Part shown: positions 10,466 through 18,035 of the stretch, piece by piece | How positions within the stretch are numbered: position 1 is the stretch's first letter | How the letters are laid out: each line of letters starts with the position of its first letter | Source of the DNA: a virus | IMG/VR virus record: IMGVR_UViG_3300009164_000415 | Coordinates: 1 to 21,356 of that record | Direction: 5' to 3' (one strand) | Length of the DNA: 21,356 bases | Made by a program: the position numbers and the translations under genes | The notes under the pieces: model-generated | The model's database searches: none | What the model was told of the DNA's origin: nothing | What the model saw: the letters and a program-made list of their open reading frames with translations, nothing else

Positions 10466-11797
10466 ATGGTAAAGGTTATTGTAGCAAAACAGAAATATGA
10501 TTGTTCTGATAAAGGATTAGACCTCGCTGGTAAATTTGTTGATGAATCACATTATGATTTATTGATAGAAGAAGATTGTGATGTCTATATGCCAGTGCCT
10601 TATGGCACAGATCCAATTAATGAAAGTAATATAGTATTAAAGTTTCGCAAGAATTATTTCACTAAAGAGCAGCAAGACGCAGCTTACTTTGGCTTAAAAG
10701 AAGCTGCCACTCGTACTGAGAATCGTGGTCTTGCTTCTGGTATTAGAGATGGCATTGTTGCTTCAGAGGAAAGTCGTGAATGGGTAACTAATTATCAAGA
10801 CGAGATGATGCAAGAGATATTAATCAATCGCACTTCAGACCTCTATGGCGATAGTGATGTTATTGATGAAGTCCGTGCCAAGTATCCAACAGAAGCCGAC
10901 AGAAAAATGGCTGGTGGTTCTGGTAAAAATAACGTATGGGTAATTTCTCGCTATCGTAATGGGAAATTCGATTTTGAACAATGGATTGACAGTATTAAAC
11001 CATTAAAAAAAGAAGCAAGAGCCATTGCAACTGAAACTGTTATGGATATGATTAGTGTAACAACTTATGGGTCTCCAGTTAATTCTGGTATTGCTGGGTG
11101 GTTTGATAGATATCCTAGAATTCCTTATGGACGTGCGACTTCTTATACACGGGATAATTTTGAAAAATTTAAAATGTCATATCCATTTCTTCAGCAGTTG
11201 GCAGTCGGCTTTAAAGATTTATTGCCTGAAAGATATTCCAATCAGATGAGTGCTGCAAGTAAATTAGATTCGAGGTATCTAGTTCCAGAAACTCCATTTA
11301 CTACTATTACAGTAAATAAAACATTTCGGACTGCGGCACACTATGATGCTGGTGATTTAACAACTGGCTTATCAAACTTACTAACATTATCAAATGATGG
11401 TAAATATACTGGTGGGTATTTAATTGCGCCTGAGTATCGCATTGCAGTTAATCCACGTCCAGGCGATCTTCTACTAATTAATAACCATGAAGTTATGCAT
11501 GGCAATACTCCTATTGTTTGTGAAGAAGGATCCGAGCGCATATCACTTGTAGTATATTTCCGTGAAAAGATGCTAGAACTTGGTTCATATGAATATGAAG
11601 AATGTCGTTATGAGTTTGTTGAATCGCGAAGATTAAATAAAGAACATGCTATGCAGAGAAAATTGTGGAATGGAATTTCTGAAGGTATGTGGGAGTCAGA
11701 AGAGTGGTATAATTTCTGCCGAAATAAACTTGGAGAAGAAACGCTATTAAAGTATCATACAAATTCAAATCGTTCTACTCTTGAGGAATTCTTTTGA
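10466..11797 (+). CDS. TET/JBP-family DNA pyrimidine dioxygenase (Fe(II)/2-oxoglutarate)
   Basis: 443 residues. Predicted to oxidise the 5-methyl of thymine or 5-methylcytosine in DNA to hydroxymethyl. The core is in the C-terminal half: TFRTAAHYDAGD holds the HxD iron motif (H292, D294), the strand GGYLIAPEYRIAVNPRPGDL follows, then NNHEVMHGN supplies the distal His (H345) and SERISLVVYFREK the 2-oxoglutarate arginine (R358). The HxD with AGD, the GDLLLxNN and the EVMHGN context are those of phage TET/JBP proteins. Residues 1-200 are an extra N-terminal region of unknown fold. TAGGAGA precedes ATG 10466. The next gene starts with TTG inside the stop codon, so the two are coupled. A general 2OG oxygenase acting on small molecules is the main alternative; the company of a hmU-kinase-like gene argues for DNA. 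Confidence 0.8.
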   Translation: MVKVIVAKQKYDCSDKGLDLAGKFVDESHYDLLIEEDCDVYMPVPYGTDPINESNIVLKFRKNYFTKEQQDAAYFGLKEAATRTENRGLASGIRDGIVASEESREWVTNYQDEMMQEILINRTSDLYGDSDVIDEVRAKYPTEADRKMAGGSGKNNVWVISRYRNGKFDFEQWIDSIKPLKKEARAIATETVMDMISVTTYGSPVNSGIAGWFDRYPRIPYGRATSYTRDNFEKFKMSYPFLQQLAVGFKDLLPERYSNQMSAASKLDSRYLVPETPFTTITVNKTFRTAAHYDAGDLTTGLSNLLTLSNDGKYTGGYLIAPEYRIAVNPRPGDLLLINNHEVMHGNTPIVCEEGSERISLVVYFREKMLELGSYEYEECRYEFVESRRLNKEHAMQRKLWNGISEGMWESEEWYNFCRNKLGEETLLKYHTNSNRSTLEEFF

Positions 11798-13041
11798 ACA
11801 TACTATTATATGACTTAGATTTATCTAAGTACACTGACTGGAGATTACCAGAGAATCGGTTAGAAGCATTTAGGAGAGTTGCCTTTACTAGAATGGCTGA
11901 GGGCGATTTAGATCATTGGCATTCTGGTCATGTTATTTCTTCAGAAATGAATTTAACAAAAGAGCAGAAAGCAGTATATGCTTTAGTGTTTGGGCAGTCG
12001 TATAGGAATCATTGGGCGATGATTGTTATGCAAAAATTCCCTGATTTACTAAACACAGACCCAAGACATATTAAAGAATGGCATGACAATATTTGGAAGA
12101 AAGCGCATTATGCCAAAGACACTAAATGGGGTCTTCGTAAATTTCCAGAGTATATTGAATCAATCAAACTGAAAGTTGGTGGAAGTGCCTATGATTATCT
12201 TGAACAGAAGTCTACAGTTGGTAACACAAAGGAAAACTTCTATTCATTGAACGAAGGTATTAGAGAGTTCTTTGGTATTGGAAGAATGACTGCTTGGCTC
12301 GCTCAGCAAACTATATACGAGTTCTTTAATTTTGATATTGATCATTGGGATTTGCAGTTGTATGATGATACATGGTCTCAATATGATTCTTTGTGTTATC
12401 TATTTAACAGAGAAGATATATCAACAAAAAGAGAACTTGGCAGAGCAAAACCAAATCTTGAAGAAGTACAACTTATGGAAAAAAACTTTCAGACATTAAT
12501 GAAATATTGTAATGATAACAGTTTATTACATTTAGATGTTTATAATATGGAATCGTGTTTGTGTGAGTTTAGAAAAACGTGTGGTTCTAGTGGAAGAAAA
12601 CCAAAGGAATTTACAGGATGGACTACTGTTGAGTTAAGTGATGAGTATGATAAGATATCTTCCAAATGGCCAGAGGTTGATTGGAAACCTTACGTTGCTG
12701 GTTTGATGACAAAGGGTAGATACCTTAGTGACTTCTCAATTAATCCAGAATACTTTAGAGTTATGGTTGACTATGGTTTAAATTTAAACACACATTACTA
12801 CTTTAAAGATGAGCCAAATGCTCATGACCTCCTTGAACTAAAACAGGTACAGTCTACTGGTATAAAAACTACTTATGCAGATTGGAATTCTAAATTTACT
12901 GAGACTGAAAGATTGCAATTAATACAAAAGCATAATCCAATTAAGTATAATAGGATAAAGCCAAAGACGCATCCTGCTTGGAAAGACACTAATCTAATCT
13001 TGCAAAATGCAATTTTAAATCAGAATCCACCTTTACTTTAA
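11794..13041 (+). CDS. HhH-glycosylase-fold base-hypermodification protein (aGPT-PPlase/AADT/HMUDK_hel type)
   Basis: 415 residues from TTG 11794, which has GAGGAA (11783-11788) and overlaps the dioxygenase stop by 4 nt. REFFGIGRMTAWLAQQ (157-171) has the G-I-G-R-x-T-A signature of a helix-hairpin-helix as in DNA glycosylases, followed by acidic/aromatic DIDHWDLQLYDDTW. Residues 252-268 (MESCLCEFRKTCGSSGR) resemble the LCEFdK...GrgKpR segment that I associate with the glycosylase-like enzymes of thymidine hypermodification (alpha-glutamyl/putrescinyl-thymine pyrophosphorylase, amino acid:DNA transferase, and the helical domain called HMUDK_hel). Those proteins replace a (pyro)phosphorylated hydroxymethyl group on thymine with a nucleophile. 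The identification is from remembered motifs; the exact subfamily and the attached group are unknown. Confidence 0.6.
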   Translation: MNILLYDLDLSKYTDWRLPENRLEAFRRVAFTRMAEGDLDHWHSGHVISSEMNLTKEQKAVYALVFGQSYRNHWAMIVMQKFPDLLNTDPRHIKEWHDNIWKKAHYAKDTKWGLRKFPEYIESIKLKVGGSAYDYLEQKSTVGNTKENFYSLNEGIREFFGIGRMTAWLAQQTIYEFFNFDIDHWDLQLYDDTWSQYDSLCYLFNREDISTKRELGRAKPNLEEVQLMEKNFQTLMKYCNDNSLLHLDVYNMESCLCEFRKTCGSSGRKPKEFTGWTTVELSDEYDKISSKWPEVDWKPYVAGLMTKGRYLSDFSINPEYFRVMVDYGLNLNTHYYFKDEPNAHDLLELKQVQSTGIKTTYADWNSKFTETERLQLIQKHNPIKYNRIKPKTHPAWKDTNLILQNAILNQNPPLL

Positions 13042-13060
13042 ATAGAATATGTAGTATAAT
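13032..13060 (+). promoter_or_regulatory. Sigma70-like promoter for the inositol-synthase/HAD/kinase unit
   Basis: -35 TTTACT (13032-13037), 17-nt spacer, -10 TATAAT (13055-13060). The -35 overlaps the end of the upstream coding region. Transcription should begin near 13067, so the ATG at 13067 would have no leader; with the start at 13148 the leader is about 80 nt and contains GGCAG/CTGCC (13070-13074 with 13098-13102). Confidence 0.75.
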
Positions 13061-13147
13061 ATAGTTATGGGCAGCTACCTCTATCCGAGCCAATATCCTG
13101 CCTTGGTCTACACAAAACCTAAAACAACTGAAATGAAAAAGGAATGT

Positions 13148-14425
13148 ATGAAAAAAATCAAAGTTGCAATCGTGGGCGTAGGTTCTTGCGCCAAATCCCT
13201 AGTAGAAGGTGTTCAATATTACGTTGAGAATCCAGACGATCAGGTTGGGTTATCATACCCAGACATTGGTGGCTACACTGTTAAAGATGTAGAATTCGTT
13301 TGTGGATTCGATGTTGATATCAGAAAAGTAAATAGACCTTTAGAAGAAGCAATCCGTGCCAGACCAAATTGTTCTATGAATCACGTGGAAAAGATTAGCG
13401 ATGCTTGTATCGCAAAGGGTGCTTTAGTATATTCTGGTCCAGAACTAGATGGTGTTGCGCCTCACATGTTAGACTACCCAGAGGAAATTTCCTTTAGAAC
13501 TGGAGCAATTCCTGCTGAGTCCTTTGAGCGTGTTGTTGAATTGTTAAAGTATCATAAGGTAGATGTTGTTATTAATTACTTACCTGTTGGATCACATTTG
13601 GCATCTAAATTTTATATTGATGCTGCCGTTGAAGCCAAGTGTCACTTTGTTAATTGTATTCCAACTTTCATCTCAACTGATGAAACACAGATTGTTGAGC
13701 AAAGATTTATCAATGCTGGTTTAACTATTGTTGGTTCAGATATGCGGTCTGGCTTTGGTGCTTCTAGATTGTCTGAGATATTACAAGGCGCAATGATTGA
13801 TTCTGGTCTAATGGTTACCCAACATATTCAAATGAATATGGCTGCTGGTTCAACTCAGGGTCAGGAAAATATCAGAACTGGTAGAAGTGCTAATACAGAT
13901 TTCTTAAACATGGCAAAGGAATATCGCTTAGAGTCAAAGCATATTTCAAAGGAAAATGTTATCAAAGGGCAGAACTCTGTTCGAGATACTTCCATTGAAG
14001 GTATGACTCTTTATGCTGGTCCAAGTTTGACAGTCCTTCAGAAACCAGGAGGAACATATGTTAATTCTGATAATAAGATCGCAAATTTAGATTTAGTTGC
14101 TTATGGGTTTGCTGGTGCACGTTATGAATTATCTGCTAGACTCTCAGTTCAAGATTCTCCGAACTCTGGTTCTGTTGTAATCTCGGCACTTAGATTCTGT
14201 AAGGTTGCCTCTGAACTTGGAATTGTAGGTTTCCTTCGTGGTGCGTCACATATTACACAAAAGACTCCACCACTACAAATGAAAATGCAAGATGCTAAAT
14301 TTGAATGTGATGCTTTGGCAAGACGTATTGTTACACCTCTTACTGAACCGCAACTAAAGCGTAACAATCCAGTCGCTAAGGAACTCCCATATACCTTTCA
14401 AAAATCAGTGAGTGATTATAAATGA
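13148..14425 (+). CDS. myo-Inositol-1-phosphate synthase family protein (INO1-like)
   Basis: 425 residues from ATG 13148. The family converts glucose 6-phosphate to inositol 3-phosphate with NAD as internal cofactor. Visible: Rossmann start VAIVGVGSCAKSLVEG (from residue 6), SDMRSGFGASRLSEIL aligned with the DxKSGxTxLxS block, ANTDFLNM (about 248-255; family GNxDxxNL/NM), ESKHISKENVI matching the RSKEISKSxVI catalytic segment (K264, K268), and QDSPNSGSVVISALRFCKVA aligned with the DSPxSAGxVIDxxRxxK block. The lysine of DxKSG is replaced by arginine. I prefer 13148 (AAGGA at 13139-13143) over ATG 13067, which lies at the expected transcription start and adds 27 residues unlike the family; ATG 13133 is a second option. 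Stop overlaps the HAD gene by 4 nt. Confidence 0.85.
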   Translation: MKKIKVAIVGVGSCAKSLVEGVQYYVENPDDQVGLSYPDIGGYTVKDVEFVCGFDVDIRKVNRPLEEAIRARPNCSMNHVEKISDACIAKGALVYSGPELDGVAPHMLDYPEEISFRTGAIPAESFERVVELLKYHKVDVVINYLPVGSHLASKFYIDAAVEAKCHFVNCIPTFISTDETQIVEQRFINAGLTIVGSDMRSGFGASRLSEILQGAMIDSGLMVTQHIQMNMAAGSTQGQENIRTGRSANTDFLNMAKEYRLESKHISKENVIKGQNSVRDTSIEGMTLYAGPSLTVLQKPGGTYVNSDNKIANLDLVAYGFAGARYELSARLSVQDSPNSGSVVISALRFCKVASELGIVGFLRGASHITQKTPPLQMKMQDAKFECDALARRIVTPLTEPQLKRNNPVAKELPYTFQKSVSDYK

Positions 14426-14826
14426 ACTCCTTTGATATAGATGGAGTTATATACATAGACAAAAAGAATAACGGAGTGTTCCCTGGAAAAGATGATGTTA
14501 TAATTACAGGTAGATCTTTCGAGGAACGTCCAGAAACTTTGTCTATGTTAAACGCAAGAGGCATATATAATGTGGTGCATTTTAATCCTATGAAGTTTGA
14601 TGCGAAGACTAGAGAATCTTCTGGTATACATAAAGCACTTGTTTTGAATAAGTTAAAAACCGAAGGAACTACTATTGGTATTCACTTCGAAGATGATGAA
14701 ATTCAAATAGAGCAAATTAAAAAATACTGCCCTTGGGTTAATGTTGTTCATATGGTTCATGAACTTACTAATAAAGAAAATGTTAGGCATTCTGAAACCG
14801 ACTATCATTTAAGACATCTGGAATAA
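14422..14826 (+). CDS. Small HAD-superfamily phosphatase-like protein
   Basis: 134 residues. HAD motifs are complete in a minimal form: motif I FDIDGVI (D5, D7), motif II IITGRS (T29), a lysine in SSGIHKALV (K71) and motif IV HFEDDEIQ (D91, D92). There is hardly any cap domain, as in small phage or polynucleotide phosphatases. It overlaps the inositol-synthase stop (ATGA) and precedes the P-loop kinase by 2 nt, so it is made together with both. By context it could dephosphorylate inositol phosphate or a phosphorylated base intermediate; the sequence does not distinguish these. Confidence 0.78.
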   Translation: MNSFDIDGVIYIDKKNNGVFPGKDDVIITGRSFEERPETLSMLNARGIYNVVHFNPMKFDAKTRESSGIHKALVLNKLKTEGTTIGIHFEDDEIQIEQIKKYCPWVNVVHMVHELTNKENVRHSETDYHLRHLE

Positions 14827-14828
14827 TT

Positions 14829-15371
14829 ATGAAGAAACTGATTGCTGTTGGCGGTAGACCTGGAACTGGTAAAACTACACTATTCCGCAAATTTATGGAA
14901 GATAAAACATGGGAGAGGGTTGAGCCAAGCAAAACTCTTTCTGCATTGTATTCTAAAGAATTAGATCTTTATGTCCTAGGTAAATATGAGGATGGTGAAG
15001 TTTTCGCTGGAACTGATAGGCTGTCAATGGCAGTTCAGCCAGTTGCGCAAAGTTTCGTCTCTGAAACCACTTCAAATATCCTATTTGAGGGTGATCGCAT
15101 ATTCAATCAGAGTTTCCTAGAGTTTGCCATGAATACCCCAAATATAGATCTTCAGATATTATATCTTAAAGTGCCCGAAGAAACTCTCAAAACTAGATAC
15201 GTTGAGAGGGGTTCTGATCAATCTGAGACTTTCTTAAAAGGAAGAGCGACTAAATATAATAATCTGCTGTCAAACTTCGAGTTGGCTCCATATATTACAG
15301 AGTTTGTAAACACTAATTTAGAGGAACAAACGAAAATTCTTGCATTTATGGACTCTCATTTGAAGAAGTAA
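14829..15371 (+). CDS. P-loop kinase of the 5-hydroxymethyluracil-DNA-kinase type
   Basis: 180 residues. Walker A GRPGTGKTT (9-17, K15) opens the protein. Further blocks are VLGKYEDGEVFAGTDRLSMA (50-69), ILFEGDRIFNQSFL (Walker B-like, with D in GDR), an LKVPEETLKTRY strand-lid region and the basic RGSDQSETFLKGRATKYNNLL segment. I associate the GKY...F.GTDRLSMAVQP and FEGDR pattern with the P-loop kinases encoded next to base-hypermodification genes, where they phosphorylate hydroxymethyluracil in DNA to activate it. Here it is a free-standing domain, while the helical partner is the 11794 gene. It ends the block. Alternative: a nucleotide or small-molecule kinase such as an inositol-linked one. 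Confidence 0.72.
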   Translation: MKKLIAVGGRPGTGKTTLFRKFMEDKTWERVEPSKTLSALYSKELDLYVLGKYEDGEVFAGTDRLSMAVQPVAQSFVSETTSNILFEGDRIFNQSFLEFAMNTPNIDLQILYLKVPEETLKTRYVERGSDQSETFLKGRATKYNNLLSNFELAPYITEFVNTNLEEQTKILAFMDSHLKK

Positions 15372-17420: not shown

Positions 17421-18035
17421 ATGTTAGGGTTTAAAGAATACTTGTTGGAAGAAACTGGAACTGGAAGTCTATCGATTTTCGATATTGACGACACTCTTTT
17501 TCACACCACAGCTCAGATAGCAGTAGTCAAGGATGGTAAGGTTGAGAAGAAATTGACCAACCAAGAATTTAACAACTACAAACTTGATGCTGGTGAATCT
17601 TTTGACTTCTCGGAATTCCGTGATGCTCATAAATTCTATCATGAGTCAAAACCAATCGGTAGAATGTTAGCCAAAGCGAAAGCAATCTTGGCAAATTCAC
17701 AGAAAAATCCTCAGAGTAAAGTTATCATTATCACTGCCAGAGCAAACTTTGACGACAAGGAAAAGTTTCTAGCAACCTTTCGCAAGTATGGTTTCGATAT
17801 CGACAAGGTTCATGTTGAACGTGCAGGTGAGTTAGAGGGTAACGAAATTCCAGCTGTTAAGAAAGCAATCATCGTAAGTAAGTATCTAAGTACCAAACAG
17901 TTTGGTAAGATAAGATTGTTCGATGACTCAATGAGTAATCTGAAAGAATTCTTAAAGTTAAAAACTAAATTTGATGAGGTACAGTTTGAAGCATACTTCG
18001 CTTTACCGAATGGTTCAATTAAGACTATTAAGTAA
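17421..18035 (+). CDS. HAD-family phosphatase with capsid-targeting-like N-terminus
   Basis: 204 residues. After an N-terminal MLGFKEYLLEE, which resembles the T4 capsid-targeting sequence (MKTYQEFIAEA), comes a HAD fold: motif I FDIDDTLF (D21, D23), motif II IIITARA (T105), a motif III lysine in AVKKAII (K147/K148) and motif IV LFDDS (D168, D169). The DIDDT form and the cap of about 75 residues are like phage polynucleotide 3'-phosphatases and similar enzymes. In T4 the targeting peptide is cleaved after (L/I)xE by the gp21 protease; LLE (8-10) would be the site here. Its stop overlaps the next gene by 1 nt. Substrate unknown; perhaps DNA ends. Confidence 0.8.
   Translation: MLGFKEYLLEETGTGSLSIFDIDDTLFHTTAQIAVVKDGKVEKKLTNQEFNNYKLDAGESFDFSEFRDAHKFYHESKPIGRMLAKAKAILANSQKNPQSKVIIITARANFDDKEKFLATFRKYGFDIDKVHVERAGELEGNEIPAVKKAIIVSKYLSTKQFGKIRLFDDSMSNLKEFLKLKTKFDEVQFEAYFALPNGSIKTIK

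Follow-up and report, generated by a model that had tools for sequence, protein, structure and literature searches.

Thymidine hypermodification in phages M6, ViI and phiW-14 involves 5hmdU, a 5hmdU DNA kinase and transferases (PMC6449724), and in the T4 system a dCMP hydroxymethylase and glycosylation are described, with glucosyl- and arabinosyl-hmC (PMC6024577). Aeromonas phages 44RR2.8t and 31 carry gene 42 (dCMP hydroxymethylase) and have no known glucosyltransferase (PMC2993671), and a 5hmC carbamoyltransferase of environmental phages was identified because its gene is associated with those of thymidylate-synthase-like proteins and dCMP deaminase (PMC8670742). The sequence described here (the window), 21,356 bases long, is part of a T4-like phage genome and encodes a clamp loader, RegA, a family-B polymerase, UvsX and DnaB, together with a myo-inositol-phosphate synthase (MIPS, or INO1) gene lying among putative base-modification genes. 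The best explanation, and one that we regard as reasonably probable, is that positions 13148-14826 and the preceding transferase gene together make up a cassette that can be exchanged and that provides the substituent in a phage operon for DNA-base hypermodification.

Organization of the locus

The relevant part of the window contains the following features.

10466..11797, + strand: Tet/JBP-type 2OG-Fe dioxygenase, predicted 5-methyl hydroxylase for a DNA pyrimidine (PF12851, 2.2e-23)
11734..14826, + strand: exchangeable cassette comprising the end of Tet, ADDT, MIPS and HAD (by blastn against L250, L283, L269 and L270, DNA similarity is absent and the flanks match)
11794..13041, + strand: divergent ADDT-family transferase, predicted to attach a small molecule to the base once activated, and inherited together with MIPS (PF18724, 3.8e-7)
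13032..13060, + strand: promoter-like site TTTACT-17-TATAAT ahead of MIPS (consensus scan, 10 of 12 matches; weak, such sites being frequent here)
13148..14425, + strand: MIPS/INO1 (PDB 1gr0, 1.6e-53; profile, 4.6e-93; catalytic lysines invariant)
14422..14826, + strand: capless HAD phosphatase with HAD motifs, near-obligate MIPS neighbor, predicted inositol-phosphate phosphatase
14829..15371, + strand: P-loop nucleotide kinase (Ploopntkinase3), predicted hydroxymethyl-base kinase on DNA (PF18751, 1.3e-10)

The genes are tightly packed. The Tet stop codon (11795-11797) overlaps the start of the ADDT-family gene (TTG, 11794), and MIPS begins with an ATG at 13148, with an AAGGA a short way upstream and matching the site at which homologues begin, and ends with TGA at 14423-14425; an alternative in-frame ATG is present at 13067. 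An earlier sequence-only reading had reported that the MIPS stop overlaps the HAD start and that the kinase gene follows 2 nt later, and both are as described, with an ATGA overlap placing the HAD start codon at 14422, and with HAD ending at 14826 and the kinase starting at 14829.

The Tet/JBP protein scores 82.8 bits against PF12851 (cutoff 34.9) and its Fe/2OG ligands H292, D294, H341, H345 and R358 are invariant in four homologues; comparison of the Tet profile with PDB sequences gave no match at E 0.01. The ADDT assignment is marginal (30.5 bits against a PF18724 cutoff of 26.2), and the ADDT versus HMUDK-helical profile comparison gave E 0.14, so that the two are kept as separate families in this account. 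The kinase is a 180-aa Ploopntkinase3 protein in which a match to HMUDK_hel is absent, and its assignment as a classical 5hmdU DNA kinase (5-HMUDK) was set aside, although it may still function like one.

We note that the Tet/JBP dioxygenases of Caulobacter phage Cr30 (L003, 6691-8019) and phages DLP_6 and S-CBWM1 carry the GenBank label 'SNF2 DNA repair protein', and that the gene following ADDT in Cr30 is similar to TET-associated or T-even glycosyltransferases. Elsewhere in the window there is a small aspartyl/asparaginyl beta-hydroxylase-like gene (PF05118; 7068-7640) in the polymerase/uvsX interval, and a second HAD-like protein (17421-18035; 204 aa, DIDDTLF motif) is encoded outside the MIPS cassette and is 94% identical in the amidotransferase-cassette phage L270.

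The MIPS enzyme

The MIPS protein aligns through residues 26-411 with M. tuberculosis Ino1 (PDB 1gr0, 1.6e-53), a match to the whole enzyme, and matches PF01658 at 5e-8. The mycothiol INO1 equivalog TIGR03450 also matches at 2e-63, yet the score of 214.7 bits is far under the curated cutoff of 638 and membership of that equivalog was rejected. Mutagenesis and structures (PMC5614600, PMC11348189) implicate four lysines in MIPS catalysis, K369, K373, K412 and the equivalent of K489 in yeast numbering, and the window protein keeps the corresponding lysines of its K-x-x-x-K, D-x-K and K-[ST]-P-P segments; these residues (K264, K268, K310 and K372 when the M at 13148 is residue 1) do not vary among 25 diverse phage MIPS. 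The protein is predicted to convert glucose 6-phosphate into inositol 3-phosphate.

The sequence-only reading had also noted that the lysine of the DxKSG motif is replaced by arginine (SDMRSG), and had proposed that chemistry or substrate may have shifted. The replacement is confirmed, arginine being present in 137 of the 140 phage frames scored where cellular enzymes mostly have lysine. We reject the replacement as positive evidence of changed chemistry: arginine also occurs at this site in some cellular relatives, and there is no positive sign of altered MIPS chemistry, since the DxKSG lysine lies outside the catalytic set, every member of which is kept.

The HAD phosphatase and its pairing with MIPS

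A Pfam search with the HAD protein gave no match, and only phrog_415 was found (8e-9). Motifs I-IV (DxD, T, K, DD) are nonetheless intact at D5, D7, T29, K71, D91 and D92, and a structure model of the 134-aa protein (pLDDT 91) has a capless core fold. The nearest fold is the 3'-phosphatase domain of T4 and bacterial Pnkp (Z 12.8), and because of this likeness the substrate could be a DNA-borne phosphate instead of free inositol phosphate.

The two genes are nearly inseparable. Among 50,697 phage records MIPS is present in 18, namely Caulobacter phage Cr30 (two accessions) and 16 Stenotrophomonas Menderavirus-type phages, and in cultured phages HAD is present in exactly these 18 records and in no others. 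The view that an INO1 gene is unusual in a T4-like phage thus holds for cultured phages, in which it is rare, but not for environmental T4-like phages, in which it is common. HAD accompanies MIPS in 93 of the 94 MIPS-seeded phage loci with enough flank, and among the 87 distinct MIPS of the first family whose flanks are long enough, 84 have HAD immediately next to them, so the adjacency is conserved across phages and exceeds chance. The departures are a 389-kb phage (L421) with no HAD within 6 kb of MIPS, L416 and L417, where HAD is about 3.5 kb from MIPS, and L448, where HAD precedes MIPS. This neighbor was found at none of 79 cellular MIPS loci. The sole apparent cellular pair (L330) is on a phage contig inside a MAG; this contig, assigned to Planctomycetaceae MAG TMED10, is a misbinned class B MIPS phage contig (see below) and represents contamination.

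Base-modification modules surrounding MIPS

MIPS loci were collected from three seeds (the window, Menderavirus and Cr30 proteins) and their neighbors were scored with profiles built for the analysis. All of the 119 MIPS-seeded phage loci contain one of three modules (44 class A, 71 class B, 4 class C) and none is mixed; because the loci are related, these counts describe association and not independent events. Class A loci, like the window, have Tet/JBP, ADDT and the P-loop kinase. Class B loci have an HMUDK-helical protein (PF18723), an SGNH-fold protein and usually a T4 gp42-type dCMP hydroxymethylase (7.5e-70 to T4 gp42, with the diagnostic Asp kept), as well as a dCMP deaminase and often a C5-methylase; at L064 (9646-10875) and other class B loci the C5-cytosine methylase lies beside the dCMP hydroxymethylase in one cassette. 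Class C loci have QueC, DpdA-like and QueE genes, the DpdA call being taken from record annotation, and this gene content points to probable 7-deazaguanine DNA modification. The sequence-only reading had held that its proposal would fail if INO1 were found regularly without the dioxygenase, kinase or HhH gene. Such loci are the majority (75 of 119), but 71 of these hold a different modification module and four the 7-deazaguanine genes, so MIPS can have any of several sets of partners, and the set of dioxygenase, kinase and ADDT is not obligatory.

As a control, 80 uvsX-seeded T4-like loci from the matching collection were scored. Seven have class A genes and two a hydroxymethylase only, so that any module gene is present in 9 of 80; for control loci of at least 12 kb, class A genes are present in 5 of 31. 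MIPS is present in none of the 80.

In whole-record searches of the larger records, Tet with ADDT and HMUDK_hel with hydroxymethylase are mutually exclusive. Cr30, whose genome is complete and holds Tet, ADDT, MIPS, HAD and the kinase, and a contig of 131 kb with Tet and ADDT were both examined in this way, and neither HMUDK_hel nor a C5-methylase was detected in a whole-record search of either; because no C5-methylase is detectable there, the class A target is probably thymine, by way of 5hmU, although a host methylase could alter this assignment. Class B modules, which are usually accompanied by the gp42 homologue, probably decorate 5hmC. Three loci (L438, L414 and Menderavirus L002) have MIPS-HAD inserted among the QueC, DpdA and QueE genes, which suggests that deazaguanine may be a further base to which an inositol product is joined; no transferase for such attachment was identified in these three clusters.

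Exchange of the cassette

Tet and the kinase are widespread in other loci without MIPS, where the genes between them encode a class-II glutamine amidotransferase, often an amidoligase-like protein (assigned at a score under the Pfam cutoff) and a GNAT protein, and a different ADDT. The 79 loci that span both Tet and kinase include 65 with the amidotransferase/amidoligase cassette, ten with MIPS, four with neither and none with both. We note that L178 (8910-12369) and 65 similar loci of environmental T4-like phages, with Tet, class-II glutamine amidotransferase, amidoligase-like, GNAT, ADDT and kinase genes, probably represent an uncharacterized amino-acid-type base modification, and that the amidoligase-like protein of these operons is almost absent from cultured phages.

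When the window is aligned with the amidotransferase phages L250 and L283, DNA identity is 84% across uvsX-dnaB and 75% in the 3' half of Tet; it is 73-74% in the stretch that opens with the kinase start and includes the following gene, and 84-86% beyond that. Between these segments, window positions 11734-14826 have no DNA similarity by blastn to L250, L283, L269 or L270. The opposite pattern is seen with the MIPS phages L005 and L006, where identity to the window is 92% for MIPS and 86% for ADDT but 61% for Tet and 45% for the gene after the kinase. The transferase and the maker of its substrate therefore travel together, ADDT and MIPS being closely similar despite the divergence of Tet. The window ADDT is only 24-30% identical to those of amidotransferase phages, and its type occurs in seven viral loci, six of them with MIPS and the seventh cut by a contig end. 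In a kinase tree the window kinase is nested among those of amidotransferase phages, and at least three cassette changes are needed; a dereplicated Tet tree, from which the Tet of the window is missing and whose branches are long, carries no weight in the argument.

Taken in both directions, these comparisons indicate that the transferase, MIPS and HAD entered jointly a backbone that uses amidotransferase genes in relatives. The co-transfer of ADDT and the cassette swap are the strongest evidence that MIPS-HAD supplies the group that the transferase would attach. ADDT stands for amino acid:DNA transferase, and the name implies transfer of an amino acid; the replacement of the amidotransferase genes by MIPS at this locus argues against an amino-acid substrate for the window protein, and use of a polyol is an extrapolation for this family.

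A proposed pathway and its alternatives

From this arrangement we infer the chemical steps, the identity of the base, its linkage and its protection. In a plausible scenario, Tet/JBP would hydroxylate the 5-methyl group of a pyrimidine in phage DNA, probably converting thymine to 5hmU, and the P-loop kinase would phosphorylate the hydroxymethyl group. MIPS would make inositol phosphate from glucose 6-phosphate, the capless HAD would remove its phosphate either from the free compound or after attachment, and the ADDT-like transferase would allow an inositol hydroxyl to displace the activated phosphate, giving an inositol-decorated base that would resist host nucleases. The exclusive context, mutual exclusion and clean swap, together with the matched control, support the earlier proposal that MIPS and HAD supply a substituent for the hydroxymethylated base, and point to an exchangeable cassette whose product is most likely inositol. 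That the pair belongs to a DNA-base modification pathway is very likely; that the attached group is inositol or a close derivative is probable. The class C loci count against this explanation, as 7-deazaguanine modules lack hydroxymethyl chemistry, and so does the 389-kb phage whose MIPS is without a HAD within 6 kb.

The alternatives differ in how much of this scheme they retain. It is rather unlikely that the cassette feeds base modification with a group other than plain inositol, either another cyclitol or inositol that is converted or phosphorylated before or after attachment (inositol phosphate, methyl-inositol or glycosylated inositol). MIPS relatives do make other cyclitols, and a five-membered cyclitol-phosphate synthase (PDB 6k96) matches at E 1.7e-31, but among enzymes of known structure the closest is 1gr0, an inositol-3-phosphate synthase (5e-93 against 2e-47 for 6k96 in profile comparison), and the 6k96 alignment stops before the K-[ST]-P-P segment that the phage proteins keep. 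Further processing would be in keeping with the glycosyltransferases of some MIPS loci (L008, L413 and the TAGT-like gene of Cr30) and with FkbM-type methyltransferases in MIPS cassettes (L073, 3990-4721; L448, 6666-7403) that could O-methylate inositol, but the window locus has neither type of gene; retention of a phosphate is compatible with a capless HAD that could act on inositol phosphate already on DNA.

We consider it improbable that the MIPS product is used for DNA while HAD serves nucleic-acid end repair or the kinase, as one half of a split Pnkp-like pair. The fold is nearest to the T4 and bacterial Pnkp 3'-phosphatases and a P-loop kinase is the next gene in the window; however, HAD accompanies MIPS in class B and C loci in which no kinase of that type was detected, and it was undetected in the kinase-seeded loci L248-L326 and the Tet-seeded loci L168-L247, all of which lack MIPS, and in cultured phages without MIPS. 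Least favored, and very improbable, is auxiliary metabolism, in which free inositol or inositol phosphate would serve host phospholipid, osmolyte or carbon use unrelated to DNA. MIPS is an ordinary metabolic enzyme and phages do carry metabolic genes, but none of the 119 MIPS-seeded loci is outside a base-modification module, modules of this kind are infrequent around uvsX in T4-like phages, and MIPS takes, with sharp boundaries, the place of a different supply cassette and moves together with the transferase; on the swap boundaries, the 119-locus context and the uvsX control, plain auxiliary metabolism is disfavored.

Inositol is probably a new and so far undetected DNA decoration, because the MIPS-HAD pair always lies within base-modification sets and in the slot held by amino-acid-handling genes in sister phages. 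Inositol and glucose have an identical formula, and an inositol-hmC or -hmU nucleoside has the mass of the hexosyl one; the adducts being isobaric, mass-only surveys could have misread or missed those of inositol. The neutral mass calculated for inositol on 5hmdU is about 420.14 and on 5hmdC about 419.15, with 79.97 more for a phosphorylated form. There is no report of inositol in phage DNA, and no nucleoside analysis of any of these phages, in the literature searched, a scope lying outside the Iyer et al. 2013 survey, Lee 2018/2022 and Burke 2021. The broader proposition, that inositol or a close cyclitol is covalently present on DNA bases in a large environmental T4-like group and that one MIPS-HAD pair has been combined in evolution with Tet-made hydroxymethyl pyrimidine, dCMP-hydroxymethylase-made 5hmC and 7-deazaguanine, we regard as evenly balanced. 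If it is correct, a cyclitol joins the few substituents that natural DNA is known to carry, phage DNA decoration consists of interchangeable parts that hydroxymethylate, activate, supply and transfer, and the annotated MIPS genes of Caulobacter phage Cr30 and of Stenotrophomonas Menderavirus gain a function.

Comparison with known systems

The window resembles the pathway of M6, ViI and phiW-14 in its predicted use of a hydroxymethyl pyrimidine in DNA, an activating kinase and a small-molecule transferase, and the ADDT and HMUDK_hel families found here take their names from pathways of this type. It differs in that hydroxymethylation is predicted to be performed by Tet/JBP in DNA and not through nucleotide synthesis, and in that inositol is predicted to be supplied in place of an amino acid or amine; the pathway as published includes neither MIPS nor HAD (PMC6449724). 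The system of the 5hmC carbamoyltransferase is likewise a decoration of a hydroxymethyl base in environmental phages, but with another enzyme family and another substituent, and inositol is unmentioned in its description (PMC8670742).

Class B MIPS loci resemble T4 in usually carrying a gp42 homologue (7.5e-70), but unlike T4 their modules are mostly without a detected glycosyltransferase, and SGNH and HMUDK-helical proteins are in its place. A fused SGNH and HMUDK-helical protein homologous to the class B module is present in Aeromonas phages 44RR2.8t and 31 (Biquartavirus), which differ from class B MIPS loci in having no MIPS match and in that the gene immediately before the fusion encodes an SGLT-type sodium/sugar symporter. 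This order, symporter then fusion (L086, 6408-10388, in 44RR2.8t), is shared by Biquartavirus phage avDM9-HANS (L090), and the symporter may be a means of importing a DNA decoration. Aeromonas phage AS-gz has an SGNH homologue near a UDP-galactopyranose mutase gene, and both this mutase and the 44RR2.8t/31 symporter look like other routes of decoration supply, a parallel for the idea of an exchangeable slot.

The enzyme itself is like actinobacterial Ino1 (M. tuberculosis, 1gr0) in sequence, in its NAD-binding glycine motif and in its catalytic lysines. The window-type phage family is set apart by arginine in place of the D-x-K-S lysine and by some 15 inserted residues ahead of N-T-D-F, and its genomic context and HAD partner are phage-specific.
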